Below, one piece after another: positions 309-28,056 of a stretch of DNA of 28,418 nucleotides. Positions within the stretch are counted from its first letter, which is position 1; each line of letters starts with the position of its first letter. Both the position numbers and the translations under genes were made by a program. The notes under the pieces were generated by a model. That model searched no databases. It saw only the letters and a list, made by a program, of their open reading frames with translations, and was not told where the DNA came from. The DNA is from a virus. The DNA lies in the IMG/VR virus record IMGVR_UViG_3300010157_000199, positions 1 through 28,418 of that record. One strand, given 5' to 3'.

Positions 309-892
309 TAAAACCATAATAATGCTCCTTGTAGGCTCAGCACAATTCCTAGTCCAGCTACAACAAAACTGCCCCAGAACAATGGCATACTAACAGCAAG
401 AATACTTGCAGATAGTAAAACGATTGCTAGTTGATATGCGGTACTAGCGTAACCAATCCACGGGCTACGATTTTTAGCATCATCGCGCTCGGCTTCTAAT
501 GCTTTGGCTTTAGCCATCAAATCTTTCTTGCCGTCCTTAGGTTCGTTTTCATAACGATCAATACGTGCGGCCATATCATCAGCACGAGCTTTATCACCTG
601 ACTTTTTAGCTTCGTATAATGATTGCTCTGCTAGTGTTTGTTTTAAGCTCTTGGCTTGATAAAAACTGTAAGTGTCGTTAGCTTTGATAGTATTGTTTAA
701 TACCGTGCTAGACAACTTGCCGCCGTACCATGCGTTAACTGCTAGACATAATGCAAATACGTTAATGACCATACCGGCTTTGTCTTTGATCTTTGCTTCA
801 CGTTCAGAACGTGAACCTGCTGGGGGCTTTGGTGCATCCGGATCTTTTGGTGTTTTGTTTACTAAATTTAATACTGAATCAATTAATGCCAT
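308..892 (-). CDS. DUF4337-like membrane protein
   Basis: A 194-residue protein when started at the ATG with AGGAG about 10 bases upstream (MALIDSVLNL); the longer reading frame has no such signal. It has a proline-rich head (DPDAPKPPAG), a first membrane segment near residues 39-57, a polar middle containing NDTYSFYQAKSLKQ, a charged coiled-coil-like part, and two closely spaced hydrophobic segments at the C-terminus. The N-x-YQAKS-K motif plus this topology recalls the DUF4337 family, whose function is unknown. Its start overlaps the end of the 51-aa gene before it, so it belongs to the same late operon. Confidence 0.65.
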   Translation of the reverse strand: MALIDSVLNLVNKTPKDPDAPKPPAGSRSEREAKIKDKAGMVINVFALCLAVNAWYGGKLSSTVLNNTIKANDTYSFYQAKSLKQTLAEQSLYEAKKSGDKARADDMAARIDRYENEPKDGKKDLMAKAKALEAERDDAKNRSPWIGYASTAYQLAIVLLSASILAVSMPLFWGSFVVAGLGIVLSLQGALLWF

Positions 893-1038
893 GTTAATAC
901 TGCTCCTATTGCTAATCCTACTACAAACGAAATAGCACAAAATTTTGCTAAATCGATGTCACGCCAAATTGGCGCATTCTTTAACCAATTTTTTTGATGC
1001 TCTGGCAAACTGTCGTGCCATGCTGTCCATTTATTCAT
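883..1038 (-). CDS. 51-aa membrane-anchored protein
   Basis: Minus-strand gene overlapping both neighbours: its ATG lies inside the last codons of the 62-aa gene, and its stop falls inside the start region of the DUF4337-like gene. The product begins MNKWTAWHDSLPEHQKNW, rich in Trp, and ends in a hydrophobic helix (FCAISFVVGLAIGAVLTWH). This suggests a small C-tail-anchored inner-membrane protein. No family recognised. The compact overlaps make it hard to see as an accidental ORF. Confidence 0.55.
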   Translation of the reverse strand: MNKWTAWHDSLPEHQKNWLKNAPIWRDIDLAKFCAISFVVGLAIGAVLTWH

Positions 1039-1219
1039 TGCTTGCTCCGTCTATTAAAAACTTTTCTATCGGGTCCACTTTAACTAACATAGCCCGTCCA
1101 TCAACATTGGCGATTTTAAAATAGTCACCGGCTCGCCATCCTAATTTGTCTACGTCTAATTCTGCATCTAATAATATTCTATGTGGTTCTAAGTCCCAAT
1201 CGTAATCGTAATATTTCAT
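1031..1219 (-). CDS. 62-aa hypothetical soluble protein
   Basis: Small acidic protein (MKYYDYDWDLEPHRILLDAE...) with no membrane segment or signal peptide. The stretch LGWRAGDYFKIANVDGRAMLVKVDP has the look of a small beta-barrel, similar in rhythm to AbrB or SH3-like folds, but I cannot assign it. Its start codon uses the last base of the upstream stop (TAATG), so it is translationally coupled to the holin-like gene. Part of the late minus-strand operon. Confidence 0.6.
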   Translation of the reverse strand: MKYYDYDWDLEPHRILLDAELDVDKLGWRAGDYFKIANVDGRAMLVKVDPIEKFLIDGASNE

Positions 1220-1500
1220 TAATCTCGTCTCGCATCATTTTTACCATCAGCACGGCTAATACGATCTACGTCTGGGCGTAGGCCTAGGGCGTTTGATACA
1301 ACAGTATCAATACGAATAACGTCATGATTCATGGTTTTTACACGATTGTCTAGCGCGGTAATAATACCGGCCATACCTTTGATACTACCAAGTACACCAC
1401 CTAGTAATAGTTTGATTGTAAGGAATACAAAATAACCGCCAGCAAGCGCGGCGGCTACTGGCATACCTAAGTCTCCGATGATTTTGAAAATCTCGCCCAT
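1219..1500 (-). CDS. Holin-like small membrane protein with coiled-coil tail
   Basis: First gene of the minus-strand operon, 93 residues. An AGGAGC ribosome binding site precedes the ATG and a late-promoter octamer lies about 35 bases upstream. Residues 10-45 are strongly hydrophobic and glycine-rich (PVAAALAGGYFVFLTIKLLL). They are followed by a helical amphipathic segment (ITALDNRVKTMNHDVIRID) and a charged, basic C-terminus. Size, one or two N-terminal membrane helices and a charged tail fit a phage holin or other late membrane protein. The window's endolysin candidate lies far away near 11000, so a lysis role is only a suggestion. Confidence 0.6.
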   Translation of the reverse strand: MGEIFKIIGDLGMPVAAALAGGYFVFLTIKLLLGGVLGSIKGMAGIITALDNRVKTMNHDVIRIDTVVSNALGLRPDVDRISRADGKNDARRD

Positions 1501-1534
1501 ACTAGCTCCTTGATTATACGTCTTATTATGCTAG

Positions 1535-1542
1535 TATTTATT
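1535..1542 (-). promoter_or_regulatory. T4-type late promoter (AATAAATACT)
   Basis: On the minus strand the sequence reads AATAAATACT, one mismatch from the T4 late consensus TATAAATA and with the frequent CT extension. It lies about 35 bases upstream of the first gene (start at 1500) of the minus-strand operon. It overlaps the extreme 3' end of the glycosyltransferase-like gene. No sigma70 -35 box is apparent. Confidence 0.6.
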
Positions 1543-2737
1543 GCTTTAGGCGCTTTTTGACTTCCTCTAAGTAAGTGGGGGTTAGTTCAAATCGTCTATG
1601 ATGTCGGCTATGATTGCCGGGGTCGCGACCATTGTTTATTTGCATTAAAATGCCAGAAAAATTATCTACAAGCTCATCTACAATTAAGTCTTTAAATGTA
1701 GTGTAGAAATGATTAAAATTATATTCTAATACTTCTTGCATTTCTTGGTGCATTTGTTTGAGCAATGCTGGTGGCATGGCACATAGTTTAGCGAGCTCAA
1801 ATGTAATTTTTTCTATGCGTATATAATGATCTGGTTCTTGATCGTAACTTTCGTCTATCCAACGATCAAAGGTGCGAAATCCGTAGCTCTTTAAATACGC
1901 AAGACTACCCGGAGTACTTACTAACAAGAACGGACGTTTTGCTACAATAGGCTTAAATACTTTTTCAGTCAGATGTAACTTTGGCATAAAATATACTGTT
2001 TCAGTTACAACATGAAACAGGGCACTAGTTAGATCTTCAAATACCACATTAGCACTTAAACTGCCATTTGGTTCTGCGGTATCAATGATTAACGGTTCAG
2101 TGCGATCTTTTAACGCCTTATATATTTTAAGTCTGGCCCTGTTATCTAGCAAGTTCTCTGGATCTTCAATTGTTTCTTTCCATCCATTGTGGAATAAACT
2201 AACATGACCATATGGTAATAAGTCTTGTTCTATTAAGTTTGCTACCAAATGCAATCTATATGAACGTAATTTTGACGTTAGATGATTGTAACATATAAAT
2301 ACTTTGTCAAATCGATTAAATGAACTTGGGTTCACATACTGAAAATCTCTATACCAATCTAACGCCGCAAACCCGTGATAAAAATAATACCAATTATACA
2401 ATTTGTCTGATCGCATAATAGTATCTGTAAGTTCGGATTTATCACTGTTAGCTAATATTCTAACTTTTCTGGGCGCAAGCCGAACACGTACATCTACTAT
2501 AGACTTTTGTATAATAGGTATTGTATAATCATATAACGGTTCTTGATCAAAGAAATAACAATGAAAGAACGTTTTAGCGGCATACTCAAATCCAGGGCGG
2601 AGAGTAGCATTAGAAACATCAGACTTAATAAGTTGTTGATAAGTTCCAAATGGGTAAAAATGAAATGATTGCCCGTCGGTAAATTGCGATATTAAATTAT
2701 CGTGTAAAATATTATAGAATCTATCTAAGGAGAACAT
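1538..2737 (-). CDS. Glycosyltransferase-like protein, paralogue A
   Basis: A 399-residue protein with no signal peptide. Near its C-terminus is a block with LHLTEKVFKPIVAKRPFLLV, then PGSLAYLKSYGFRTFDRWIDESYD. A TEK...KPI...RPF arrangement followed by a GF.TF...DESYD element resembles the nucleotide-sugar binding end of fucosyltransferase-like (GT10-like) phage proteins. A second gene at 8530-9594 carries the same block, so the two are paralogues bracketing the enzyme cassette. Its start codon is two bases from the divergent UDP-sugar dehydrogenase start. Likely role: glycosylation of a virion component or of a host surface sugar. The fold assignment is inference. Confidence 0.6.
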   Translation of the reverse strand: MFSLDRFYNILHDNLISQFTDGQSFHFYPFGTYQQLIKSDVSNATLRPGFEYAAKTFFHCYFFDQEPLYDYTIPIIQKSIVDVRVRLAPRKVRILANSDKSELTDTIMRSDKLYNWYYFYHGFAALDWYRDFQYVNPSSFNRFDKVFICYNHLTSKLRSYRLHLVANLIEQDLLPYGHVSLFHNGWKETIEDPENLLDNRARLKIYKALKDRTEPLIIDTAEPNGSLSANVVFEDLTSALFHVVTETVYFMPKLHLTEKVFKPIVAKRPFLLVSTPGSLAYLKSYGFRTFDRWIDESYDQEPDHYIRIEKITFELAKLCAMPPALLKQMHQEMQEVLEYNFNHFYTTFKDLIVDELVDNFSGILMQINNGRDPGNHSRHHRRFELTPTYLEEVKKRLKQ

Positions 2738-2739
2738 TA

Positions 2740-3954
2740 ATGGAAGTAGGATTTATTGGAATAGGCAAGTTGGGCATGGCATGTGCTGAAACAATGGCAA
2801 GTAAACACACAGTGACTGGGTATGATATTTATCCACGGTCTAGCACCAAAATTAAAATTGCCACTCAATTAGAAGATGCTGTACTTGGCAAAGACCTAGT
2901 ATTCATTGCAGTACAAACACCACACGATCCTGTCTATGGCGGCGACCAACCTATTACCCATTTAAAGAACAAAGACTTTGACTATACTATAGTCAATGAC
3001 GTATTGCGTCAAGTAAATGCAGTAGCAACACCAGACCAACTAGTAGTATTAATCTCCACAGTACTCCCTGGCACTACCCGGAGAGAACTGAAGAACAACA
3101 TCACCAATGCACGTTTCATTTATAACCCCTACCTTATTGCAATGGGGTCAGTTGAATGGGACATGGTTAACCCCGAGATGGTAATCATTGGTACAGAGGA
3201 TGGTAGCGAAACAGGCGATGCCAAGTTGCTGACTGACTTCTATAATACATTAATGGAGAACAATCCACGTTACGTAGTAGGTACGTGGGATGAAGCAGAA
3301 TGCATCAAAGTATTTTACAATACATTTATCAGTGCCAAGATTGGCATTGTTAATATGATACAAGATGTAGCAATAAAACAAGGTAACATCAACGTAGACG
3401 TAGTAACAAAAGCATTGGCTGAAAGTACTATGCGTATTATGGGACCAAAGTATATGACCGCAGGAATGGGAGATGCAGGGCCGTGTCATCCACGTGATAA
3501 CATTGCCTTGCGTTACCTTGCAGAAGAATTAGATCTTGGCTACGACCTATTTGATACTATAATGAAGGCACGTGAACAACAGGCCAAGAATATGGCACGT
3601 TACATTTACAATCACCGTGCTGGCTTGCCAGTGTTTATACACGGACGAGCATACAAGCCTAATGTGGATTATTTAGAAGGCAGTTATAGTTTGCTAGTGG
3701 GCTATTATCTACAACAGATGGGCATTAAACCAATTTATATTGATCCGTTAACAGAAACAGTTAATCCTGTTAGTGTACGAGGATGTGTACTGCTAGCACA
3801 CAATCAGCAGATAACATACGGATATGCCGGTGTTGACAGCGAACAAAAATTATATTGTGAATTTGAAGCCGGTACAATAATCATTGACCCGTGGCGCAAA
3901 TATACAACAACTAACACAGATATTAAAGTTATCCACTACGGTAACACTAGATGA
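2740..3954 (+). CDS. UDP-glucose/GDP-mannose dehydrogenase-family protein
   Basis: Family members oxidise the C6 hydroxyl of a nucleotide sugar to a carboxylate with two NAD+. The 404-residue protein shows the N-terminal Rossmann loop GIGKLG (residues 7-12), STVLPGTT (107-113), E187-x-x-K190-x-x-x-N194, and the active-site Cys249 in GMGDAGPCHPRD (the usual motif is GFGGSCFPKD). The C-terminal binding region GRAYKPNVDYLEGSYS matches the family's GxAFKPxTDDxRESPS. All key residues are present, so it is probably active. AAGGAG lies 8 bases before the ATG. It overlaps the next gene by four bases. Substrate unknown. Confidence 0.85.
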   Translation: MEVGFIGIGKLGMACAETMASKHTVTGYDIYPRSSTKIKIATQLEDAVLGKDLVFIAVQTPHDPVYGGDQPITHLKNKDFDYTIVNDVLRQVNAVATPDQLVVLISTVLPGTTRRELKNNITNARFIYNPYLIAMGSVEWDMVNPEMVIIGTEDGSETGDAKLLTDFYNTLMENNPRYVVGTWDEAECIKVFYNTFISAKIGIVNMIQDVAIKQGNINVDVVTKALAESTMRIMGPKYMTAGMGDAGPCHPRDNIALRYLAEELDLGYDLFDTIMKAREQQAKNMARYIYNHRAGLPVFIHGRAYKPNVDYLEGSYSLLVGYYLQQMGIKPIYIDPLTETVNPVSVRGCVLLAHNQQITYGYAGVDSEQKLYCEFEAGTIIIDPWRKYTTTNTDIKVIHYGNTR

Positions 3955-5132
3955 TAGGTCGCAATTTTTGTCTTGCTCCTTTTACTCAAATTACGTATAG
4001 TCCGTTGGGTAGTGCTAGCCCTTGTCCTTACTTGGGTGGACAAGCGTGGAAATTTGATGATATGCCAATTGGCAATATATGGGCAAGTCAAGAACTTGAA
4101 AATTTACGCACGGCATTTCATGCAAATGAAAAGACCTCTACTTGTACACGTTGCTGGCGCGAAGAAGATCAAGGTAAACAAAGTGCTCGTAAATTAAATT
4201 TAGTAAATTACAGGTATAGAGATAACCTAGTAGGTTTAGTTGATGGTGGGTATAAAATTGGCCCACAGCAGATTAATTTACGTGTTGGTAATTTATGTAA
4301 TCTACGGTGTCGTACTTGTTTTAGTATTAGTTCCGTTACGTATGCTATTGAAGGTCGTTATTATGAACTTAAAAACGATCTTGATACGACTGTATACACA
4401 CGCTATCCTGATGTATTTGAATTCTCAGATAAACAAATAGATGAAATATTTGCTGTTAGTGGTAATCTAAGACGCCTTGAGTTCTACGGCGGTGAACCGT
4501 TGCTAGATAAACCTACTATGCGTTTATTACAATTACTAATTGACAGTGGACAAAGTAAAGACATTACGTTATTTTATAATACCAATGTTATAACAAAGCC
4601 AACAAAAAAACACATTGAGTTATGGAAGCATTTTAAGAACTTAGAATTTAATTTAAGCATTGATGGAGTTCGAGAACAATTTACTTATATTCGGCACCCG
4701 GGTAACTGGGAAACATTACTTAGTAACATTGAGTATATTAGAACAGAAGTACCTAACTTATGTAATGTACCTGTGTCGGCATTTGCTATATGTACCGTAT
4801 CTACATTTAATGTATTTTATTTGCCAGAAATTATACAGGAATTTGCTAATTTAAAACTTGATTGGTTCTTAAACATAGTTACACAGCCTGATTATTATGA
4901 TATGAAACATTTACCTGTACCAGTTAAAGAGCGAGTAATTGAAAAACTACTTACTATCAAAGACCAAACAGAAATAACTCCTATAATTAATATACTTAAA
5001 TCAGATGGTGATGCAGAACAATGGAAACAGTTTAAATTTTGGACCAAAGAAAAAGATGAGTACCGCGGAGAAACGTTTAAAAATACTTTCCCTGAATTTT
5101 ATGAGATAATTACTACATATGATCTACTATAA
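3951..5132 (+). CDS. Twitch-domain radical SAM protein
   Basis: Radical SAM enzymes cleave S-adenosylmethionine at a 4Fe-4S cluster to start radical chemistry. The cluster motif is CNLRCRTC (Cys116, 120, 123), followed by the GGEPLL motif. An additional cysteine set lies at the N-terminus (Cys7, Cys25, Cys65, Cys68 in CTRCW), as in twitch-domain relatives that bind a second cluster. At 393 residues it is full length. The start ATG overlaps the dehydrogenase stop, and its end overlaps the next gene by 14 bases. Substrate is unknown; neighbours suggest modification of a small metabolite, sugar or fibre protein. Confidence 0.85.
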   Translation: MIGRNFCLAPFTQITYSPLGSASPCPYLGGQAWKFDDMPIGNIWASQELENLRTAFHANEKTSTCTRCWREEDQGKQSARKLNLVNYRYRDNLVGLVDGGYKIGPQQINLRVGNLCNLRCRTCFSISSVTYAIEGRYYELKNDLDTTVYTRYPDVFEFSDKQIDEIFAVSGNLRRLEFYGGEPLLDKPTMRLLQLLIDSGQSKDITLFYNTNVITKPTKKHIELWKHFKNLEFNLSIDGVREQFTYIRHPGNWETLLSNIEYIRTEVPNLCNVPVSAFAICTVSTFNVFYLPEIIQEFANLKLDWFLNIVTQPDYYDMKHLPVPVKERVIEKLLTIKDQTEITPIINILKSDGDAEQWKQFKFWTKEKDEYRGETFKNTFPEFYEIITTYDLL

Positions 5133-5622
5133 TATAGACAAGTTCTGGGACGACGAGTTTAAAGCACTAGACTACATTAATGAACCATTTAACGATAACG
5201 AAAATACTCGTGCATGGATGGCATTAGGGTTTCCTGGAAAGTTTACCGGTGATATGTGTGATATGCGTAGCGCACAACCAAGTTGGAATAATCGATTCAT
5301 TGAGTTTTTTACAGCCGAAGGGTGGAAAGACATAGGTACAAGTTATTACCGGATGAGCCCCGGTACTATCCTACCAGCACACGGCGATCTATATTTAAAA
5401 TACATAGAACTGTTTAACCTACAAGGGCAAGAACAGTCAATATGTCGTGCTGTAGTTTTCTTAGAAGACTGGCAACCGGGGCATTATGCAGAATATTTAA
5501 ACACTCCATACACGAACTGGAAAGCAGGCGCTACGGTAGAATGGACCTACGATGCATTGCACTCGGCAGTCAATGTAGGATTTACTCCTCGATATACACT
5601 TCAAATAACAGGACATAAATGA
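5119..5622 (+). CDS. 2OG-Fe(II) oxygenase-like protein
   Basis: A 167-residue protein with the metal and cosubstrate signature of 2-oxoglutarate/Fe(II) oxygenases: H88-x-D90 in PAHGD, a distal H148 (LHSAV), and R158 ten residues later (PRYTLQITG), which would bind 2-oxoglutarate. Size and spacing resemble the aspartyl/asparaginyl hydroxylase branch. Such enzymes hydroxylate amino acids in proteins or small molecules. It overlaps the radical SAM gene upstream and the amidinotransferase downstream, so all are made from one message. The substrate is not evident. Confidence 0.7.
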   Translation: MIYYNIDKFWDDEFKALDYINEPFNDNENTRAWMALGFPGKFTGDMCDMRSAQPSWNNRFIEFFTAEGWKDIGTSYYRMSPGTILPAHGDLYLKYIELFNLQGQEQSICRAVVFLEDWQPGHYAEYLNTPYTNWKAGATVEWTYDALHSAVNVGFTPRYTLQITGHK

Positions 5623-6536
5623 TTAGCAGTTACAATGAATGGGATCCACTTAAATCCGTAGTAGTAGGTAGTGCCAGATACGCAAACTGGCCAAGTAGCG
5701 ATCCTGTGTTTGCACAAGAATCTGAAAAAACAACATGGAAAGAAACACCCGTCCCAGGTGGGCCAGTCCCGGATCACATCGTAGATGAAGCCGATGAAGA
5801 TTTAAATACTCTTGCTTATACCTTACATAACTTAGGAATTCAGGTCATTAGACCATCGCCACGTAATTATCCAGTAACCGGCGGAATGTATAATTATTGT
5901 CCTAGAGATCGTTTACTAATATATGGTAGTACTATTATTGATCCTGCTATGATGTATCCCTGCCGTGATCAAGAAATACTTACATTAGATGAAGTAACAC
6001 ACAAATCGCACGATATACGAGTTATGCCTAGAGATCAAGGAATGGTACTTGATGCGGCTAACGTATGTCGATTAGGTGATAAGATGTTATTCTTAGAATC
6101 GGCATCAGGCAACCGTAAAGCATACGATTGGCTTTGTGAGCAGTTCCCCGATGTTACTATAGAACTATGTAATTTCTATTCAGGTGTTCATATTGACAGT
6201 ACTATTGTGCCATTGCGACCAGGGCTAGTAATGCTAAATGGCAGTCGTGTATCTTTTGATACAGTACCTAAGGTATTTGATGGATGGCAAAAAATATGGG
6301 TCAATGATGTTGTTGCTCAAGATTTTTATCAATACCCCTATGCTAGCAAGTGGATTGCAATGAATATGTTAGTCATTGATCATACTACTGTTATTGTTGA
6401 TCGACACCAGTCTGAACTAATTAAGACATTGGAAAGTTATAAATTCACAGTTATACCATTGGAATTACGACATAGCCGAACTCTTGGCGGTGGATTCCAT
6501 TGTGTGACATTAGATTTATTGCGTACTAGCAAATAA
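5619..6536 (+). CDS. Glycine amidinotransferase-like enzyme
   Basis: Relatives move an amidino group from arginine to an amine, making guanidino compounds (arginine:glycine or inosamine-phosphate amidinotransferases). The 305-residue protein opens with the family's EWDPLKSVVVG. It has PRD (95-97), D145 in LDAANV, H191-x-D193 in GVHIDST, and the nucleophile Cys295 in GGGFHC. The usual Cys-His-Asp set is therefore complete. The start overlaps the oxygenase stop by four bases. In this context it could put a guanidino group on an amino sugar or peptide; that is inference. Confidence 0.8.
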   Translation: MISSYNEWDPLKSVVVGSARYANWPSSDPVFAQESEKTTWKETPVPGGPVPDHIVDEADEDLNTLAYTLHNLGIQVIRPSPRNYPVTGGMYNYCPRDRLLIYGSTIIDPAMMYPCRDQEILTLDEVTHKSHDIRVMPRDQGMVLDAANVCRLGDKMLFLESASGNRKAYDWLCEQFPDVTIELCNFYSGVHIDSTIVPLRPGLVMLNGSRVSFDTVPKVFDGWQKIWVNDVVAQDFYQYPYASKWIAMNMLVIDHTTVIVDRHQSELIKTLESYKFTVIPLELRHSRTLGGGFHCVTLDLLRTSK

Positions 6537-6539
6537 ATA
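6532..6539 (+). promoter_or_regulatory. T4-type late promoter (AATAAATA)
   Basis: AATAAATAG overlaps the stop codon of the amidinotransferase gene. By T4 geometry (octamer at -13 to -6) transcription would start near 6545, only three bases before the ATG at 6548, which has no ribosome binding site. The pair would give an almost leaderless mRNA. Confidence 0.5.
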
Positions 6540-6547
6540 GTATTACT

Positions 6548-7291
6548 ATGACTTTTGCCAACTATACTGACGCGGTACTATCTGCGCTAATTTTTAATCC
6601 CAAAGCTTCTGATGTTATCGCAAGAAAACAGGAGATACTCGACGGGGTATATCGCACAGAAAATCTTGAACCACAGAGCGTATTATTTGTTGGCTTTAAT
6701 CCAGCAATACTAAGTTGCCGTGCTAAAAATATATCAGTCACTGATATTAGTTCTACAGCACTAGATTTCATTAAATTAAAAAATGTAAAATTTAATTACA
6801 TTGATCCTGTTGAATTAGGTAATCACCAAAAGAAGTTCCAGTGTGTAATAGCAATGGACGAGTACTTTACATTTGCCAAAGACGATCAGGAACAGCAAGA
6901 TAAGATAGCAAATATTTGTAGTCTAGCCACAGATTTTGTGATAAGTACTGTACGCGACTACAAGAATCAAGATTTTAAAGATCGTGATTTTAGTCAGCCA
7001 ATTATGGTTAGAAATGGTAGTGATTATAAACTATACGTTGAAAACCACGATTGGGATTTAAAGGATCGTGCATTATGGACAAGTATGGTTTATGAAATTA
7101 ATGCCGCAAACGCATTGACTACATATGGCATTTTTGACCGTCGTACAATGTTTTTTAAGCAGTTAGCAAAGTTTAGTATGGACGCAGGAGCCGTGAATTT
7201 CCTCGTACATAAGAACCTAATGTATAAGAGTCTAATCAAAAAGAACTACGAGCACGTAGTTAGCATACAATTCGAAAATAATGGATATTGA
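6548..7291 (+). CDS. Rossmann-fold protein, methyltransferase-like
   Basis: A 247-residue protein with a pattern like class I SAM-dependent methyltransferases: a first strand and turn SVLFVGFNPAIL (near residues 44-55), an acidic second strand end SVTDIS, a motif FNYIDPVEL, and FQCVIAMDEYFTF in the position of motif IV. The glycine-rich loop is poor (VGFNP instead of GxGxG), so catalysis is uncertain. It has no Shine-Dalgarno sequence and begins just after a late-promoter octamer. Its stop overlaps the start of the fibre gene by 11 bases, suggesting it is made together with the fibre and perhaps acts on it. Confidence 0.5.
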   Translation: MTFANYTDAVLSALIFNPKASDVIARKQEILDGVYRTENLEPQSVLFVGFNPAILSCRAKNISVTDISSTALDFIKLKNVKFNYIDPVELGNHQKKFQCVIAMDEYFTFAKDDQEQQDKIANICSLATDFVISTVRDYKNQDFKDRDFSQPIMVRNGSDYKLYVENHDWDLKDRALWTSMVYEINAANALTTYGIFDRRTMFFKQLAKFSMDAGAVNFLVHKNLMYKSLIKKNYEHVVSIQFENNGY

Positions 7292-8540
7292 CACACACGT
7301 AAACAGTATAGTAGAACAGATAATAACAGACATAACTTCAAAAGTTCAGGCGCAGGTAGCAACAGTTATCTCGCAAAAAATTGATGAAGCATTAACAGTT
7401 ATTGACTACACTTCAATTTTAGCCGACAAGCTAAGCCAACGTCTTGACGCAAAATTAGCAACATTACCAATTGATGCTACCAGCATTCAACTTGAACTGG
7501 GCAAGCGTGTAACAGCACTGAGCGAAACATTAGCAGAGCAGGTACGTTTACGATCAATTTCAGAAATTGCCGATTCTGTTGCTCGAGAAGTCACTGGTAT
7601 TAATTTCAATGACACGTTTCAAACAACACTATTAACAGCTATTCAAAATCGTCAAGTAACATTCCCAGACCAGAGTATCTCATTTAACTCAATTGATTTT
7701 AACGGATTTAAAATCAATGGGGATATAATCTCAGGTGGCATTATCACTAAATTTGGTAGTACAGGAATAGACGATCAATCTACAGCATGTCAAGTTACAA
7801 TCCTTGATGATGTCACGGTAATTGAAAATAACCTATTAACAAAAGACCTAACAGTCAAAGGTACTGCCACAATTGAAGGCGATTTAAATGTAACTGGTAC
7901 TATTCCCGAAACAAGCCAATTATTTCAAAGTGTAGTAACTGCCGCAACCAACAACGTCATAACAAATCAATCATTGCTTACAAGTTTTGCCGGCAAAGTT
8001 GTGGCACAAATTAAAACCGATGGACTTGATCTTGCTAAAATTTTAGTTAATGGTCAAACAGCAATTGAAGGCAACAACCTAGGCGCCTTTATTACTTACA
8101 GTAACTTACAACGTGTTGGCCAATTAGCCGAATTGCAAGTAACAGGCGAATCGTTGTTTACAAATACATTATACACCACTAACAAACGTGTTGGTATCAA
8201 CACCGTCGAACCCGGGCACTCATTGGCAGTATGGGATCAAGAAGTTGAAGTCGGTATTGGCAAACAAAGCACCAATACCGGCGTCATTGAAACTCCACGT
8301 AATCATGCGTTGGTATTAAGTAGCAATCAAAAGAATAACTTAATCCTAACAACCGATGGTGCTGTTACCGTTAATAAAATTAATATGGGCAGTATGAGTT
8401 TTGCTGTTGGTAGTGTGCCACCAAACAACAATCAACCCAAGGGCAGTATTGTGTTTAACAGCAATCCGAGCCTGGGTGGACCACTGGGTTGGGTATCACT
8501 GGGTGATGCTCGATGGGCTAACTTTGGAATTATTGATTGA
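7281..8540 (+). CDS. Tail fibre / virion structural protein
   Basis: A 419-residue protein with an N-terminal helical, coiled-coil-like part (residues 1-100, rich in Val, Ile, Gln and Ser). Beta-rich segments typical of trimeric fibres follow: LTKDLTVKGTATIEGDLNVTG (near 185-210), then KRVGINTVEPGHSLAVWD, a repeat style seen in phage and bacterial beta-helical fibres. The C-terminus ends in short Gly/Asn-rich blocks (GSIVFNSNPSLGGPLGWVSL). No S74 chaperone and no cysteine-rich segment. The start codon overlaps the preceding gene. It runs convergently into the minus-strand gene at 8530, overlapping by 11 bases. Confidence 0.7.
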   Translation: MDIDTHVNSIVEQIITDITSKVQAQVATVISQKIDEALTVIDYTSILADKLSQRLDAKLATLPIDATSIQLELGKRVTALSETLAEQVRLRSISEIADSVAREVTGINFNDTFQTTLLTAIQNRQVTFPDQSISFNSIDFNGFKINGDIISGGIITKFGSTGIDDQSTACQVTILDDVTVIENNLLTKDLTVKGTATIEGDLNVTGTIPETSQLFQSVVTAATNNVITNQSLLTSFAGKVVAQIKTDGLDLAKILVNGQTAIEGNNLGAFITYSNLQRVGQLAELQVTGESLFTNTLYTTNKRVGINTVEPGHSLAVWDQEVEVGIGKQSTNTGVIETPRNHALVLSSNQKNNLILTTDGAVTVNKINMGSMSFAVGSVPPNNNQPKGSIVFNSNPSLGGPLGWVSLGDARWANFGIID

Positions 8541-9594
8541 AGTAACTAGTAAACGCCAATTTAAAATACGCATACCAATCTACCGATAACATACGATTAA
8601 AGTTATGTTCGCAGATTGGTTTTATTTTGGCTAAAATTTCTTCTTGGTCTTGTGTTTCTAAATAAGCAACTTGATCCATTGCCGATTTAAATCTATCTAT
8701 GTTGGCTTCCACTTTGTCATAGGATTCATCTATTACATCACCGAATGTATGAAATCCCATTAGGCGTAAATTATGTAGTTGATGTTGTCCGCCAAGCGTA
8801 ACAAACAAACGTCGTGCTAGAATAGGCTTAATTGATTTTTCGGTGTAGAAACTGTAGTGGTTACTGTAGTTTGTTTCTGCTACTAGAGTGTAAGCAGTTT
8901 GATTATAAATGCGTAACGGCACAATTTGACTAATGCTCATCCGATGTCCGTAATATGGTAGTCGATCCACGGTCCATTCAACAGGCTTATCAATCAACAG
9001 GCCATTGTTTTCCCATATCCACTTGGTTGGATCACTAAAGTTACAATTGATGTCACCCAAATAAGTCACAAGGTTAACGTCTGTGTTGATATGTTCTGCC
9101 GCAAAATCTCTATGTGTTTTTTTGCGACCAAGTAGTGCGTCAAAGTAGTATTGTTTTTTTGTGTAAGGAACAAGCACATCTAATGTTTCAGGGCGAACAT
9201 GTTTGTAGAAATGTGTAGTAGTTGTGAACCAATCGTAAAATTTATGTACAGGGCTAAACACTAGATCAAAGTTAAATTCGCCACATATAAAATAACTGAT
9301 TTTACGGTTATCATGGCGCTGAACTATTTCTATAGTTCTATCATGCAGTTCGCTCATTAAAATTAACACATGGTCCGAGCACGATGCCAATTCGTCGACA
9401 AGTACGTCAAATTCTGCACGTACAGGATACGGCATTTGCAAACAAGCAATTTTACTGCTATGGGTACTGCTACGGAATTGGTCTATGTCATTGTAGACCT
9501 GTATTGAATCAAGTAAACTACACTTATTAAAATGATAAAAGAAAAGGGCATCCGTTTCTTGCGTCACGAATACCCCTGTCGGGATTACTGCCAT
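8530..9594 (-). CDS. Glycosyltransferase-like protein, paralogue B
   Basis: A 354-residue protein sharing the C-terminal block of the gene at 1538-2737: FYTEKSIKPILARRLFVTLG, then a leucine-rich stretch and LMGFHTFGDVIDESYD. The conserved order TEK..KPI.A.R, GF.TF, and DESYD indicates common ancestry with paralogue A. The N-terminal two thirds differ strongly from it, which would fit different acceptors. The start at 9594 has no clear Shine-Dalgarno sequence but follows the upstream stop by five bases, so translation may be coupled. Assigned as glycosyltransferase-like only by the resemblance of the C-terminal block to GT10-type proteins. Confidence 0.55.
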   Translation of the reverse strand: MAVIPTGVFVTQETDALFFYHFNKCSLLDSIQVYNDIDQFRSSTHSSKIACLQMPYPVRAEFDVLVDELASCSDHVLILMSELHDRTIEIVQRHDNRKISYFICGEFNFDLVFSPVHKFYDWFTTTTHFYKHVRPETLDVLVPYTKKQYYFDALLGRKKTHRDFAAEHINTDVNLVTYLGDINCNFSDPTKWIWENNGLLIDKPVEWTVDRLPYYGHRMSISQIVPLRIYNQTAYTLVAETNYSNHYSFYTEKSIKPILARRLFVTLGGQHQLHNLRLMGFHTFGDVIDESYDKVEANIDRFKSAMDQVAYLETQDQEEILAKIKPICEHNFNRMLSVDWYAYFKLAFTSYFNQ

Positions 9595-22934: not shown

Positions 22935-22950
22935 GTAGTTCAACGTCGTT

Positions 22951-22958
22951 GATAAATA
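22951..22958 (+). promoter_or_regulatory. T4-type late promoter (GATAAATA)
   Basis: Seven of eight matches. By T4 geometry the start is 22964, exactly the A of the fibre gene ATG. Confidence 0.6.
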
Positions 22959-22963
22959 GTTAT

Positions 22964-23626
22964 ATGACACTACCAGCATCCGGACAAATTGCACTCAGCG
23001 ACGTTTCAACAGAAACGGGACAATCAAGCCCTTCTCTAAGTTGGGTTAAAGCCAATACCAAAGACAACGTTTCAGATATGAATTCGTTGCACGGTCGTGC
23101 ATACTATCAAAACAATAACTCTGGTAACTGTAATAACGGTAATTGTACTAATAATTGTAATTGTGGAAATATTGGTGGTGACAACTGTTTTATCACTGGC
23201 GCTATAAACTGTGCTAACTGCGACGCTCAATCGTGGTTGCAGGCTAACTGTAATTGTAACTGTACTTATAACTGTACATATTCCGCATCGGCTAGCCATA
23301 ATTGTAACTGCGATTGTAACTGCGATTGCTTCTGGTCCGATGACACCCTAAAGAACCGAGAAACTGTAATTGAAAACGCACTTGACATTGTACGTCAATT
23401 AGATGGTTTTTATTATACCGGTAACGAATTGGCCGCAAGCCTAGGATTAGATACCCAACGTGATGTTGGTGTTAGCGCAAATAAAGTTAAACAGCATTTC
23501 CCTGTCGCATTGGGTACTAATTTGCCCGATACAGATATTCTAAGAGTTAGATACGAACGTTTGATTCCTTTATTGTTAGAAGCACTAAAGCAATTAGACA
23601 ACAAAGTTGAACAAATCAAAAAATAA
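22964..23626 (+). CDS. Asx-Cys-rich fibre protein with S74 chaperone domain
   Basis: A 220-residue protein in three parts. Residues 1-50 (MTLPASGQIALSDVSTETG, SLHGRAYY) match the opening of many phage virion proteins. Residues 55-124 hold 16 cysteines (56, 61, 65, 67, 75, 83, 86, 96, 98, 100, 104, 114, 116, 118, 120, 122), each preceded by Asn (14) or Asp (2). From Ser125, SDDTLK and GV-type motifs (QRDVGVSANKVKQHFP) form an S74 intramolecular chaperone, with Ser125/Lys130 as the likely self-cleavage dyad, ending in a coiled coil. Cleavage would leave the Cys-rich part as the tip, ending CDCFW. The start has no ribosome binding site. A radical SAM/SPASM gene follows seven bases later. Confidence 0.8.
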   Translation: MTLPASGQIALSDVSTETGQSSPSLSWVKANTKDNVSDMNSLHGRAYYQNNNSGNCNNGNCTNNCNCGNIGGDNCFITGAINCANCDAQSWLQANCNCNCTYNCTYSASASHNCNCDCNCDCFWSDDTLKNRETVIENALDIVRQLDGFYYTGNELAASLGLDTQRDVGVSANKVKQHFPVALGTNLPDTDILRVRYERLIPLLLEALKQLDNKVEQIKK

Positions 23627-23633
23627 GGTTACT

Positions 23634-25082
23634 ATGCAATTTGAAATTCATGCCGAGCGTAGTGCTACGGATAAGAAAGTATTCTATTACGACAACGTAA
23701 CAAATACGCTATCTACGTCTGACAATAATGTGTATGAATACCCCAAAGAAGAAAAAGAACCAGATGGTTATTACTATCCGGAAGTTCGTGCTTTTTCCAA
23801 AGACGACCCTCTACGTAAAAGCACAAAGATTGGTATCCTTAAAATACAACTTGGCCTAAGTTGCAATTACTCCTGCGATTACTGTAGTCAAAAATTTGTT
23901 GAGCGTCCAGCAGAGACCAGTAAAAAAGACATTGATGCTTTTATGACCAAGTTAGAAGTGCTTGAGTTCAGTGAAGAAAAAGGTCTGAAGATTGAATTCT
24001 GGGGCGGTGAACCATTTGTGTACTGGAAAACATTTAAACCTCTAGCCGAAGCATTGCAAGAAAAATTCAGTTCGTGGAAAAAGCGTCCACAGATGAGTGT
24101 TATTACCAACGGCAGTTTGCTAACACGAGAAATAGGATCCTGGTTATACTACATGGGATTTAATGTAAGCATCAGCCACGATGGACCAAATCAAACAGTA
24201 CGTGGCCCAGATCCTTTTACGGATCCAGCTAAGAAAAAGATTCTTATGGAATTCTACAATGTGATGAAGCCGCAAGGTCGTTTTAGTTTTAATACCATGA
24301 TGAACCGACGTAACACCAGCCGTAAAGATGTATACGATTGGTTTGTAGAATTTACCGGCGACCCAACTGTTATCATTGGCGAAGGTGCCATGGTTGACGC
24401 CTACGACGAAGATGGTTCTAACAACAGCCTAGACACACTAGAAGAACATTTTGAATATCGCAAAACATCATTCAATGACATGTACTCCACTGGCGGCCGT
24501 ATTAACTTTGCAGGTGTCACTGGCAAGATTGATGGCTTTATTCGAGATGTATTAAAGCACAAAGAATCAAAGTACGTAGGACAGAAGTGTGGAATGGACA
24601 ACGATCATACCATTGCTGTGGACTTGACTGGTAATATTGTTACTTGCCAGAACGTAAGCGTTAAAGAAACAAGTAAAAATGGCGAAAGCCACCTTGGAGG
24701 TAATCTAGACGATTACGAAAATGTTAGATTGAAATCAGTCACACATTGGTTAAATCGACCCAATTGTCAAGACTGCCCTGTGTTACACTTATGCAAGGGC
24801 AGTTGTATGTATCTAGATGGCAAGTATTGGGACATCACTTGTAACAATGCCTACAGTGATAATGTTCCGTTGTTTGCACTAGCAATTGAAAAAATGACAG
24901 GATATATTCCTGTCATGATCAAAGGTGGTAACTTGCCACCAGAGCGTGAAGACATTTGGGGTACTGTACTAACCCACCAAGAAAAGTCTAAGAAAAAGAT
25001 TATACCTATTAAGGTGATAACAGAAAAGATTGCAGTGATTGACGATATTGAAGTATACGGCCAATCTCGAGTAGAGGAATAA
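23634..25082 (+). CDS. Radical SAM/SPASM peptide-modifying enzyme
   Basis: A 482-residue enzyme, started at the ATG after AAGG. The radical SAM cluster motif is CNYSCDYC (Cys77, 81, 84), with GGEPF following. The C-terminus carries a SPASM-type cysteine set: CGMDND, TGNIVTCQN, CQDCPVLHLCKGSC and ITCN. SPASM enzymes usually modify ribosomal peptides (thioether bonds, C-C crosslinks, epimers) or enzymes (sulfatase maturation). Here the next gene upstream encodes the Asx-Cys-rich fibre, a natural candidate substrate. A C-terminal extension of about 90 residues (TGYIPVMIKGGNLPPEREDI onward) is not typical. Confidence 0.85.
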   Translation: MQFEIHAERSATDKKVFYYDNVTNTLSTSDNNVYEYPKEEKEPDGYYYPEVRAFSKDDPLRKSTKIGILKIQLGLSCNYSCDYCSQKFVERPAETSKKDIDAFMTKLEVLEFSEEKGLKIEFWGGEPFVYWKTFKPLAEALQEKFSSWKKRPQMSVITNGSLLTREIGSWLYYMGFNVSISHDGPNQTVRGPDPFTDPAKKKILMEFYNVMKPQGRFSFNTMMNRRNTSRKDVYDWFVEFTGDPTVIIGEGAMVDAYDEDGSNNSLDTLEEHFEYRKTSFNDMYSTGGRINFAGVTGKIDGFIRDVLKHKESKYVGQKCGMDNDHTIAVDLTGNIVTCQNVSVKETSKNGESHLGGNLDDYENVRLKSVTHWLNRPNCQDCPVLHLCKGSCMYLDGKYWDITCNNAYSDNVPLFALAIEKMTGYIPVMIKGGNLPPEREDIWGTVLTHQEKSKKKIIPIKVITEKIAVIDDIEVYGQSRVEE

Positions 25083-25083
25083 T

Positions 25084-25734
25084 ATGACACAATTACAAGA
25101 ATTCATTGATGCTTGCAAAAGCATTGAGGCATTTGTAGATGTAAAGGCTCAAGAGCCAACAGACGTTATGATGGCACAAATTACGCCAGCATATACATTT
25201 TCGGTGAAGCCAACACTATTTACATTTACATTTAAAGACAGTACAGGAACGCCTAGAGATATTACAATTATCGTTCCTTACGAAGTGTGGTCTGTTGCAG
25301 GACATCCCCCGGTTAGCGAATTCCGTGAAGTAGCCGACCGTTTTGCTATTGTTCCACAAACACACGTATTCTTTTTAAAACCGGATACAGTAGACAGCAT
25401 TGTTCTGCGCGGTCATAGTATTGTACCTATTGCTGATCCAGAGCCAGCATTGGCTGATGTACTTAACCGTTTACGCACCTTAGATCAGGTAACTACTGCA
25501 CAGGCCTTCTTGGTTGTAGATACTGCTATTATTGCCGAAGCTGGTAACGATGCTATCGTAATTGATTGCGGCATTAAAGATTTAACTGCTACTAGATTCC
25601 CGGGCATTGGAAATTATGTAGACGATGTAGTTCAAGTTACATTGCCTAAAAGCATTTATAGCGATCCAGAAAAACAAGATCGTATCTGTCAACTTGTGGT
25701 AGATAAGATTAATGAAAATAGAGTTATTCAGTAG
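25084..25734 (+). CDS. 216-aa hypothetical protein in modification cassette
   Basis: Starts one base after the radical SAM stop with AGAGGAA upstream. Soluble, acidic, beta-rich, no signal peptide. Segments such as PTLFTFTFKDSTGTPRDITI and PGIGNYVDDVVQVTLPKSIY show no known catalytic motif, although RDITIIVPYEVWSV is a distinctive strand. Conserved position between radical SAM and oxygenase genes suggests a carrier, chaperone or adaptor for the modified protein, but this is inference. It overlaps the next gene by 23 bases. Confidence 0.6.
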   Translation: MTQLQEFIDACKSIEAFVDVKAQEPTDVMMAQITPAYTFSVKPTLFTFTFKDSTGTPRDITIIVPYEVWSVAGHPPVSEFREVADRFAIVPQTHVFFLKPDTVDSIVLRGHSIVPIADPEPALADVLNRLRTLDQVTTAQAFLVVDTAIIAEAGNDAIVIDCGIKDLTATRFPGIGNYVDDVVQVTLPKSIYSDPEKQDRICQLVVDKINENRVIQ

Positions 25735-26317
25735 TCCACTCTGGACCTTTGATTTATCAGCGAGCCAGCCGGAACTAGCAGAGTTAGTTAGGCTCGATGG
25801 ATTAAACTTTAGTCAGCATGTCAACGAACAACAGAAGATTAATCCTGTACATACCAAGCACTATAGTTTCCTGGACTTTGCCGGTTACGGTACAAGCGCA
25901 TTAAGACAGTATACAGTAGATGCTATAGAGTCAATTGCACAAGAACGTCGATGGCCCGAGTACAATTTAGACTTACGTACCAGACATAATGTTATAGCAC
26001 CAGGTCGGTGCGATACCCCACATCACCACAGTGACCTAGACATGGTAGGAATTTACTATGTTGACTGCCCGCCTAACTCTGGAGACTTACTGCTACTTGA
26101 TGCCCGAGGTTCAGTTAATCTAGCATGGCAAGAACCCTTAGTAACAGCCGATAGCGAAGGGCGCACCGGCAGAATCTATTACCGTGTTGAGCCAAAAGTT
26201 GGAACCTTACTTATGTTTCCTAACTATCTATTCCACAGCGTTGAAACAAATCTAAGCACAGAAAATAGAATATCTGTAGTAATGGATATTAGAATCATAC
26301 ATGAAGACCAATCTTGA
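25712..26317 (+). CDS. 2OG-Fe(II) oxygenase, TIGR02466-like
   Basis: A 201-residue protein with the family's opening (ELFSSPLWTFDL), metal-binding His in DTPHHHSDLDMVGIYYV (His104/His106 region), DLLLLDARG, the distal His175 in MFPNYLFHSVETN, and Arg186 in ENRISVVMDIR, the probable 2-oxoglutarate anchor. These enzymes hydroxylate or otherwise oxidise substrates; members are common in aquatic phages, with unknown targets. Overlaps both neighbours. Within this operon the Asn/Asp residues next to Cys in the fibre are plausible targets, as in aspartyl/asparaginyl hydroxylases acting on Cys-rich domains. Confidence 0.8.
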   Translation: MKIELFSSPLWTFDLSASQPELAELVRLDGLNFSQHVNEQQKINPVHTKHYSFLDFAGYGTSALRQYTVDAIESIAQERRWPEYNLDLRTRHNVIAPGRCDTPHHHSDLDMVGIYYVDCPPNSGDLLLLDARGSVNLAWQEPLVTADSEGRTGRIYYRVEPKVGTLLMFPNYLFHSVETNLSTENRISVVMDIRIIHEDQS

Positions 26318-27458
26318 ATACGCAGTAGTTGGTGGCGGCACCGCTGGGTGGCTCACCGCACTATTTGTCAAGTCACAATTTCCCTATAGCGAAGTTACTG
26401 TAATAGCCAGCAGTGAAATTGGCATATTAGGTGCCGGCGAAGGAACCACTCCACCATTTGTAAACTTTTTAAATCAGATTGGTATTAATCCTTTAGACAT
26501 TATTGCACAGGCCCGTGGTACAGTTAAGAACGGAATACGTTTTGTAAACTGGCGTGGAGTAAATGATTATTATGATCATAATTTTTTAGCAGATTCGGGC
26601 ATGGGCGATCGAGCGTTGCATTTTGACGCTAACCTGCTGGCCAAGTTTTTACAAACACAAGGCTTAGCACGTGGTATTAAATTAATTGACAGCGAAGTTG
26701 TTGCTGTAACAGGCAGTGACACTATTACTGGTTTAGTGCTTAAAGATCAAACTACAGTCCCAGTAGATTTTGTGTTTGATTGCTCGGGTTTTGCTCGCTT
26801 AATCATTGGCAAGCATTATGCTACTAAATGGACATCGTATCAATCTATACTGCCAGTCGATCGAGCTATGCCGTTCTTTTTACCCAATGCCGGAGTGGAT
26901 TTGCCAACCTATACCGAAGCTGTAGCTATGCGCCATGGATGGATGTGGCGCATTCCTGTACAGGGACGATATGGATGCGGCTATGTTTTTGACAGCAGTT
27001 GTGCTACCGATGAACAAATACATCAAGAGTTAGAAGAGTATTACGGTCACGAGATTGTGAGCCCTAGGCAATTTAGTTTTGATGCTGGCTGTTATGATCA
27101 AACCTGGGTAGCAAATTGTGTTGCCATTGGCCTGAGCTCGGGATTTAGCGAACCGTTAGAAGCAACTAGCATTTGGGTACAAACTGCCAGTCTTAACTTG
27201 TTGGCTACAAAAATATCAGGAATACTAAACAACGACGCAGATGCTCGTAGACAATACAATCAAGCAGTCAACACAATGAACAGAGACATTGCCGACTTCT
27301 TGCATTTTCACTACTTGTCAGGACGTAACGATTCACCATTTTGGCAAGCGTTTGATCATGCCCAAGAGTTTGTAAGGCCAGCACCGGGTGTTCTAAAAAC
27401 ATTTAACGATCATAATTGGAACTCAGTTGCACAAGGAATCGGTCATGCAAGTGTATAA
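26301..27458 (+). CDS. Flavin-dependent tryptophan-halogenase-like protein
   Basis: A 385-residue FAD enzyme of the tryptophan halogenase family. Motifs: GGGTAGWL (11-18), LGAGEGTTPPF (43-53), the catalytic lysine candidate Lys76 in TVKNGIRFVNW, DCSGF (160-164), WMWRIP (214-219, the WxWxIP hallmark), and GFSEPLEATSIW. All parts expected of an active halogenase are present, but it is much shorter than bacterial enzymes (about 500 residues), as reported for phage members. It may act on a free indole or on Trp in a protein. Two Trp lie in the Cys-rich fibre (SWLQ and CFW). Starts inside the oxygenase gene. Confidence 0.85.
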   Translation: MKTNLEYAVVGGGTAGWLTALFVKSQFPYSEVTVIASSEIGILGAGEGTTPPFVNFLNQIGINPLDIIAQARGTVKNGIRFVNWRGVNDYYDHNFLADSGMGDRALHFDANLLAKFLQTQGLARGIKLIDSEVVAVTGSDTITGLVLKDQTTVPVDFVFDCSGFARLIIGKHYATKWTSYQSILPVDRAMPFFLPNAGVDLPTYTEAVAMRHGWMWRIPVQGRYGCGYVFDSSCATDEQIHQELEEYYGHEIVSPRQFSFDAGCYDQTWVANCVAIGLSSGFSEPLEATSIWVQTASLNLLATKISGILNNDADARRQYNQAVNTMNRDIADFLHFHYLSGRNDSPFWQAFDHAQEFVRPAPGVLKTFNDHNWNSVAQGIGHASV

Positions 27459-28056
27459 GCTATTTGGCCATGATATTGCAGTAGTACATTGCCCTCACCA
27501 GCACTGGTACAACAATGCTGGATTAGATCAAGGTATCCGTAACATAATGGAACTGTCTGAAGTTAAAAATCGAGATCGTGGGCAAGTTTGGGACAGCCAC
27601 TACGGCGAAGGCGAAACTAGCGAAGTTATTCCTTATCTAGGTCCAGCTAACCTTCCCGACGCACAAGATCTTTTAACCTGGATTAAGCAACAAGCAACTG
27701 AATTGTTGAAAGTCAAGTCAGTTGACGTTGATAGGTCCTGGACCAACCGAATGGAAATTAATAGCCAAGGGCGATGTCACAATCATGTAGCTACAAACAA
27801 TCAATTAACAACTCCCGATTTAGTTGCTGTGTTTTATGTTAATAACCCACCGGGCGGTAGCAGTTTGATTATTGTTGATCAAGACTGTACTGGAAAATTG
27901 CCATCGGACATAGACGAAATACACAAGGAATATATTACTCCTAGTTCGGGAGACCTGATTATGCACGGCCCAGAAGTCTGTCATGGAGTAAGCGAGCATA
28001 AGAATACAGATCCCCGGATTTGTTTTGTGTATCAATTGACTTTAACTAATAAATAA
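27445..28056 (+). CDS. 2OG-Fe(II) oxygenase-like protein
   Basis: Started at the ATG after AAGGAATC; it overlaps the halogenase stop by 14 bases. The 203-residue protein carries CHNHV (His112/His114), VAVFYVNNPPGG, SSGDLIMHGPEVCHGV (His180) and PRICFVYQ (Arg191), the HxH...H...R arrangement seen in the oxygenase at 25712. The two are distant relatives on both sides of the halogenase. The N-terminus (YKLFGHDIAVVHCPHQHWYN) is different, which suggests different substrates. Function inferred from motifs only. Confidence 0.7.
   Translation: MQVYKLFGHDIAVVHCPHQHWYNNAGLDQGIRNIMELSEVKNRDRGQVWDSHYGEGETSEVIPYLGPANLPDAQDLLTWIKQQATELLKVKSVDVDRSWTNRMEINSQGRCHNHVATNNQLTTPDLVAVFYVNNPPGGSSLIIVDQDCTGKLPSDIDEIHKEYITPSSGDLIMHGPEVCHGVSEHKNTDPRICFVYQLTLTNK

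Follow-up and report, generated by a model that had tools for sequence, protein, structure and literature searches.

Phage sugar-modification islands are already known, and they are usually dismissed as lipopolysaccharide (LPS) genes of unknown use. In Synechococcus phage Bellamy and Pelagibacter phage HTVC008M, the islands around a UDP-sugar dehydrogenase hold NadE-like, NolO-like carbamoyltransferase, epimerase and glycosyltransferase (GT) genes. Calicheamicin and Ara4N-type aminopentose routes employ a UDP-sugar dehydrogenase, a short-chain dehydrogenase/reductase (SDR) for UDP-glucuronic acid, a DegT aminotransferase and the N-methyltransferase CalS10. Phage-encoded glycosyltransferases can also act on virion proteins, as stated for the mycobacteriophages Che8, Corndog and Myrna in a passage of PMC12363180 that cites Freeman 2023. 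Here we analyzed a gene block in the IMG/VR virus record IMGVR_UViG_3300010157_000199. The window is this entire record (28,418 bases) and represents a piece of a larger viral genome. The block joins a putative sugar dehydrogenase, an oxygenase and an amidinotransferase with glycosyltransferase-like and tail-fibre-like genes. We propose, with a probability of about one half, that it encodes several of the enzymes by which the phage would make a guanidinylated nucleotide sugar of the amino or uronic type, together with the transferases using it. The new elements are the guanidino step and the conserved core; our literature searches found no earlier description of this combination.

An initial annotation, made from the DNA alone, placed the block at positions 2740 to 8540. 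The open reading frames (ORFs) confirm these limits and the places of the six plus-strand genes. They encode a sugar dehydrogenase (UDH), a radical S-adenosylmethionine (SAM) enzyme (rSAM), an oxygenase (OXY), an amidinotransferase (AMT), a methyltransferase-like protein (MT) and a tail-fibre-like protein (FIB). Two GT-like genes on the opposite strand, GTa upstream and GTb downstream, flank them. As the annotation proposed, these two are related (BLASTP 6e-10, 28% identity over 117 aa), which makes them paralogues. The claim that the enzyme genes overlap in series is right for every junction but one. Consecutive ORFs share 4, 14, 4 and 11 nt, while AMT and MT are separated by an 11-nt gap. 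GTa and UDH are divergent, with start codons 2 nt apart. FIB and GTb are convergent and overlap by 11 nt. A promoter scan gave no excess above shuffled sequence.

The comparison included the best 80 of the 376 viral-collection loci that match AMT, and homologous gene orders were found in them. OXY adjoins AMT in 76 of the 80; in the other four, a GT or a radical SAM gene lies between both. UDH is present in 74 loci, and 73 carry a GT upstream on the opposite strand. MT appears in 28, always together with FIB, and the MT-FIB module is present in about 40% of the loci. The conserved core is GTa with UDH-OXY-AMT. MT-FIB(-GTb) forms a second module of its own and rSAM is inserted only occasionally, so the single cassette of the initial annotation must be divided. 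Compared with four relatives, seven genes (all except rSAM) had pN/pS values of 0.14-0.50. The strongest constraint was on UDH and AMT, and the weakest on FIB and GTb. The arrangement of the block is not due to chance, because of these values and the homologous gene orders in the 80 viral loci.

AMT (5619..6536, plus strand, 305 aa) would provide the guanidino step. Its profile matched StrB (1BWD) at 1.6e-87, HsvA at 8.6e-57 and AGAT at 4e-51, with 297 bits against StrB and 177 against AGAT. Among solved structures, StrB is the nearest by a margin of ~100 bits. Profile residues 2-303 align with residues 4-340 of 1BWD, a full-length similarity to a characterized family member. D145, H191 and C295 are invariant in 27 sequences. 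They align with StrB and with D254, H303 and C407, the catalytic triad of AGAT (PMC3684758). In AGAT, Asn300 and Met302 are important for binding the substrate (PMC4887976). At these positions AMT presents S188 and V190, and StrB presents alanine and threonine. By these comparisons, AMT is classified as a StrB-type rather than an AGAT-type amidinotransferase, with a predicted L-arginine:amine amidino transfer. Creatine-type metabolism, raised by PMC11360552, was rejected: AMT is StrB-like and accompanies UDH and GT genes in viral loci.

UDH (2740..3954, plus strand, 404 aa) matches the Pfam family UDPG_MGDP_dh (2.5e-15) and its N domain (2.7e-15). It also matches phrog_9148 (6e-98) and, as a profile, the UDP-glucose dehydrogenase (UGDH) structures in the PDB (1.9e-30). 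K190, N194, C249 and D253 are invariant across 25 sequences and correspond to the catalytic Lys, Asn, Cys and Asp of the UDP-sugar 6-dehydrogenase family. Their spacing is like that of streptococcal UGDH. UDH is accordingly placed in the UDP-glucose/GDP-mannose dehydrogenase superfamily, but not as a UDP-glucose dehydrogenase proper.

OXY (5119..5622, plus strand, 167 aa) resembles a small Fe(II)/2-oxoglutarate-type oxygenase. Residues H88, D90, H148 and R158, that is, the HxD...H facial triad and a downstream Arg, are invariant in 26 sequences. The family Asp_Arg_Hydrox was matched weakly in 7 of these 26 (best 0.0047), and a homologue in a bacterial contig (L120) matches PhyH at 5e-4, below the cut-off. 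At curated thresholds, no family match was found. Upstream of it, rSAM (3951..5132, plus strand, 393 aa) reaches 297.8 bits against NF033640, the twitch-domain radical SAM model (cut-off 170). It contains the cluster motif CX3CX2C as CNLRCRTC. Among the 80 loci, this gene lies within the core unit only in the window and in L079, where its position differs (between OXY and AMT). Several other loci have a radical SAM gene after FIB, and scanning the viral contigs with rSAM recovered only 3 distant loci. A role as an essential pathway step was ruled out, given its absence from the core in nearly all loci.

GTa (1538..2737, minus strand, 399 aa) was modeled with AlphaFold2 (pLDDT 86.7, pTM 0.88). 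The predicted model has two Rossmann-like domains in a GT-B arrangement and near full-length alignments to many GT-B enzymes. T4 beta-glucosyltransferase (Z 11.8) and an alpha-1,3-fucosyltransferase (Z 10.5) were among the structural matches, and T4 alpha-glucosyltransferase was also listed. Foldseek returned WaaG at 7.9e-4. The conserved motifs are ET and TEK, and tblastn against named phages gave no match. The model points to a GT-B glycosyltransferase-like protein with predicted nucleotide-sugar transfer. Its paralogue GTb (8530..9594, minus strand) has 354 aa. GTb is 70% identical to that of L006 and only 44-45% to those of L004, L005 and L007, while the neighboring genes are about equally close. 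This difference suggests allele swapping at GTb.

The MT protein (6548..7291, plus strand, 247 aa) was also assigned from its AlphaFold2 model (pLDDT 91.1; Foldseek match 5e-11). It shows the predicted seven-stranded Rossmann-like fold of class I SAM-dependent methyltransferases. Its best structural matches included TylM1 (Z 18.8 over 223 aa), CalS10 (18.5) and DesVI (18.2), all of them TDP-aminosugar N-methyltransferases; other methyltransferases tie with them within 1 Z. In LFVGFNPAIL, the region of SAM-binding motif I (GxGxG), only G49 is invariant. No match to MT was found in named phages. The FIB gene (7281..8540, plus strand, 419 aa) has 23 weak phage matches to its C-terminal 88 aa (E 2e-3 to 1), and 20 of them are annotated as fibre or tail fibre. 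Nearly all come from T4-like cyanophages. One FIB family member matches phrog_8215 at 4e-4. The full-length protein had no match in named phages and, by BLASTP, is unrelated to the other fibre ORF of the window. Sequence-profile searches of solved structures with GTa, MT and FIB gave nothing significant. The gene classes in the initial annotation are confirmed for the dehydrogenase, the radical SAM enzyme and the amidinotransferase. The oxygenase is supported by its invariant residues and weak family matches, the methyltransferase-like and glycosyltransferase-like genes by their predicted folds, and the probable fibre by its weak C-terminal matches.

A candidate amine source for AMT was found in related genomes. 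All six large relatives searched encode a sugar aminotransferase of the DegT type and, next to it, an SDR of the epimerase family, in an island distant from the cassette. In the pair of L143, the aminotransferase matches sugar aminotransferases up to 2e-55, and the best solved relatives of the SDR are 6ZL6 and 6ZLJ. The structures 6ZLJ, 6ZLD and 6ZLL are of UDP-glucuronic acid 4-epimerase (PMC11519531), and MoeE5 (6KV9) has this epimerase activity too (PMC7984243). At the level of related genomes, and not of this contig, such a pair would supply the amine and close the gap in the pathway. No NTP_transferase was found in the same six relatives; therefore, the host would have to supply the UDP-sugar from which the route starts.

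Our proposal is based on the gene order and its conservation, the catalytic residues of UDH and AMT, and the HxD/H/R residues of OXY. It also considers the predicted folds of MT and GTa, and the SDR and aminotransferase of the relatives. For the substrates, the order of the steps, one shared product and the acceptor, we infer the following. UDH would oxidize C6 of a host UDP-sugar to give a UDP-uronic acid. The SDR and the DegT-type aminotransferase, encoded elsewhere in the phage (as seen in relatives, outside the contig), would install an amine. AMT would amidinate that amine, with L-arginine as the donor. OXY would hydroxylate the sugar or the aglycone, and MT (by optional methylation) and, in this phage, rSAM would further tailor either of them. 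Finally, GTa, plus GTb in fibre-bearing lineages, would pass the sugar to an acceptor. The uronic or guanidino-sugar pathway suggested initially is thus favored by the StrB-like AMT, the UDH residues, the MT fold, and the aminotransferase and SDR of the relatives. Further points in its favor are the conserved gene order, the sugar islands around the UDH relatives of Bellamy and HTVC008M, and AMT genes found together with GT genes in several separate settings described below.

Several observations weigh against this proposal. UDH scores 141.8 bits, under the cut-off of 189.8 for TIGR03026 (the NCBIfam nucleotide-sugar dehydrogenase), and its UDP-binding C-terminal Pfam domain is weak (18.4 vs 30). 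Because of both scores, the substrate of UDH could differ from the expected one. GTa has no Pfam or other sequence-family assignment, and its Foldseek TM-scores are low (~0.37). An aminotransferase was not recognized within the cassette itself. The SDR also matches dTDP-glucose 4,6-dehydratase, GalE and UDP-glucuronate decarboxylase. Its reaction is not pinned to the 4-epimerase, because the dehydratase and the decarboxylase score close behind the best match. The sugar product, the enzyme activities and a modified virion are predictions from the genes.

The acceptor also limits the proposal. Most likely, it is an outward-exposed surface. Candidates are the fibre, co-inherited in the MT-FIB lineages, and a different glycan of the virion or of the host surface. 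We scored FIB in the 64 loci with at least 2.1 kb of sequence downstream, and it is present in 32 and missing in the other 32. Three sizeable records hold the core without any FIB homologue. Attachment to this fibre, which the initial annotation put forward tentatively, therefore cannot be the general function of the core. Of the two companions by which that annotation would judge its idea, the GT is nearly constant in the relatives, and the fibre is not. The general acceptor may be another virion or host-surface glycan. A convergent downstream GT, scored within 9 kb, was present in 18 of the 20 testable loci with FIB versus none of the 18 without it. On the AMT tree, the FIB label switches at least 4-5 times. 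Only 2-3 independent pairs inform the FIB-GTb link, so it is suggestive, and we rejected it as a proof of function. Nevertheless, GTb in MT-FIB lineages could reasonably use the fibre as its acceptor.

The loci lacking a fibre agree as well with a sugar by which the infecting phage changes the LPS or capsule of the host envelope, for example to block superinfection, with the fibre as a mere neighbor. We consider this somewhat unlikely. Relatives of UDH lie in islands like the cyanophage clusters that others called LPS clusters (PMC3037559). The genomes of the searched relatives hold 1-14 GTs of the GTa family, together with SGNH-like and carbamoyltransferase genes. On the other hand, a flippase, a polymerase and a nucleotidyltransferase were not recognized in the cassette, NTP_transferase is missing from the six relatives as described above, and the FIB-GTb association favors the virion.

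It is quite unlikely that these enzymes build or alter amino acids or peptides instead of a sugar, for example to form homoarginine-like virion residues or a product like the ribosomally synthesized and post-translationally modified peptides (RiPPs). Twitch/SPASM radical SAM enzymes frequently act on peptides, and OXY distantly resembles Asp/Asn hydroxylases. The amidinotransferases AGAT and AmtA use amino acids (PMC4887976), and Campylobacter phages CP220 and CPt10 combine AMT with five radical SAM genes (PMC2853527). In L120, moreover, an ORF resembling class I/II aminotransferases separates AMT from the GT. However, OXY-AMT has UDH and a GT-B protein as companions in almost every locus, AMT is StrB-like and not AGAT-like, and the relatives encode a sugar aminotransferase with an SDR.

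DNA hypermodification, in which the sugar is put on modified phage DNA bases as T4 does with glucose, is highly improbable. T4 beta-glucosyltransferase heads the structural matches of GTa, and other routes to modified bases exist. Yet the GT-B fold is common to many unrelated transferases, the Z gap to the fucosyltransferase is ~1, and GTa has no Pfam match to the T4 glucosyltransferases. The thymidylate-synthase family, to which T4 dCMP hydroxymethylase belongs, was not found in 7 of 10 relatives, whose records may be incomplete; the remaining three match thymidylate synthase proper (~350 bits). The T4-type version of the nucleotide modification considered in the initial annotation is disfavored because most relatives are without an enzyme of this family. 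Finally, separate genes could lie together by chance, with no joint product: rSAM is inserted variably, many loci have no MT-FIB, and jumbo phages hold many metabolic genes. This is highly improbable, because the UDH-OXY-AMT order is kept under purifying selection across the 80 retrieved loci, and an OXY-AMT pair also occurs in a cultured cyanophage and a contig of Bdellovibrionota.

The source virus is assigned as a jumbo myophage-type virus by homology, because contigs of the cassette-sharing relatives reach 364 kb and the terminase of one of them (G006) is nearest to that of Pseudomonas phage PA5oct (54% identity). The jumbo phages Phosso and Atu_ph07 are the next closest. A head maturation protease similar to ClpP is also encoded in the window. 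We infer a freshwater habitat from the nature of the data set. A more specific form of our proposal is that a family of freshwater jumbo phages makes a guanidinylated amino-uronic (or aminopentose) nucleotide sugar with several enzymes of its own and decorates its adsorption fibres via GTb as a dedicated transferase, which would give positively charged glycan tips. We regard this form as unlikely.

Other genes lie around the block. A DUF4337 protein is encoded at 308-940 (Pfam 3.4e-31), and it is also near the cassette in 13 related loci. A second cassette, at 22949-28056, comprises the end of a tail fibre (PHROG 1e-14), a gene for a radical SAM enzyme (phrog_1802, 1e-58), two unknown ORFs and a tryptophan-halogenase-like gene (phrog_2928, 3e-97), followed by one more ORF. 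Synechococcus phage S-SCSM2R likewise carries PrnA close to its OXY-AMT pair. In L002-L081, sequence motifs near the cassette, on either side of the core, indicate ORFs resembling CHASE2/adenylate cyclase (a cluster of 78), ClpS, a small heat-shock protein and ClpX. By the same means, UV damage endonuclease-, fatty-acid desaturase- and phosphate-binding-protein-like ORFs were noted.

Many GTa-family genes of the relatives belong to islands that also hold carbamoyltransferases of the NodU/NolO type, a divergent OXY, a second AMT beside two GTs, and ORFs like twitch-type radical SAM and SGNH proteins. For the last two classes, the assignments come from sequence motifs only. In L134, L135 and L137 (genomes G002, G004 and G008), islands of ~15-20 kb alternate several of these radical SAM-like ORFs with GTa-family genes, and they hold SGNH-like ORFs and one NodU/NolO carbamoyltransferase. 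The second AMT beside two GTs is in G002 and G008. AMT also lies with GTs in contig L100, and OXY-AMT is followed by a GT in L120. This last contig, from a Bdellovibrionota metagenome-assembled genome (MAG) and with a UvrC-like ORF, has OXY, AMT, the class I/II aminotransferase-like ORF and a GTa-family protein adjacent at 509-4890. The same chemistry may have a bacterial home there, with the caution due to a MAG contig. L096 and L100 are filed as Bacteroidetes and Chloroflexi; the genes around their GT-OXY-AMT or AMT-GT look phage-like, and both contigs are probably of viral origin and were binned into MAGs. We dropped L100 as a Chloroflexi locus, since its gene content resembles a phage contig in a MAG.

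The recurrence of the core in ~80 loci suggests that these viruses attach an unusual sugar to their fibres or to the surface of the host. It is a compact three-enzyme core with guanidine transfer and an attached transferase, and in one large lineage the fibre module is joined to it. This defines a testable pathway, concerning the nature of the virus-made guanidino sugar and a chemical modification of receptor-binding fibres by the phages themselves. If a sugar with a positive charge sat on the fibre or the host surface, it could alter adsorption or superinfection. In addition, sugar guanidinylation would gain new biocatalysts in these enzymes.

Compared with known systems, AMT shares the Asp-His-Cys triad and the small residues at substrate-site positions with StrB1, the inosamine-phosphate amidinotransferase of the streptomycin pathway. 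However, StrB has ~20-30 extra residues before the DAAN motif, and the neighbors of the phage AMT are UDH, OXY and GT genes. Campylobacter phages CP220 and CPt10 also have AMT with radical SAM and nucleotide-sugar transferase-like genes (PMC2853527), but their AMT is 22-23% identical and no UDH-OXY is annotated.

The islands of Bellamy and HTVC008M share homologous UDH (58% and 50% identity, respectively), GTs and a methyltransferase with the window family, and carbamoyltransferases are in the relatives of the window too. In those islands UDH is paired with NadE-like and NolO-like genes, with no annotated amidinotransferase, whereas in the window it is with OXY-AMT. S-SCSM2R is the only record with OXY in the phage collection. 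Like the window, it presents overlapping OXY (26%) and AMT (36%) genes among glycosyltransferases and a radical SAM gene. Unlike the window, its UDH (27%) is elsewhere in the genome, and it has no fibre neighbor.

The virion glycosylation of Che8, Corndog and Myrna is a model for decoration of the fibre, which in the virus of the window would be a prediction from its genes; the passage on these mycobacteriophages does not mention an amidino-sugar cassette. Lastly, the calicheamicin and Ara4N-type routes have the same enzyme classes as the phage family, and CalS10 is among the best structural matches of MT. The difference is that the phages have the SDR and the aminotransferase in a distant island and add an amidinotransferase and an oxygenase.

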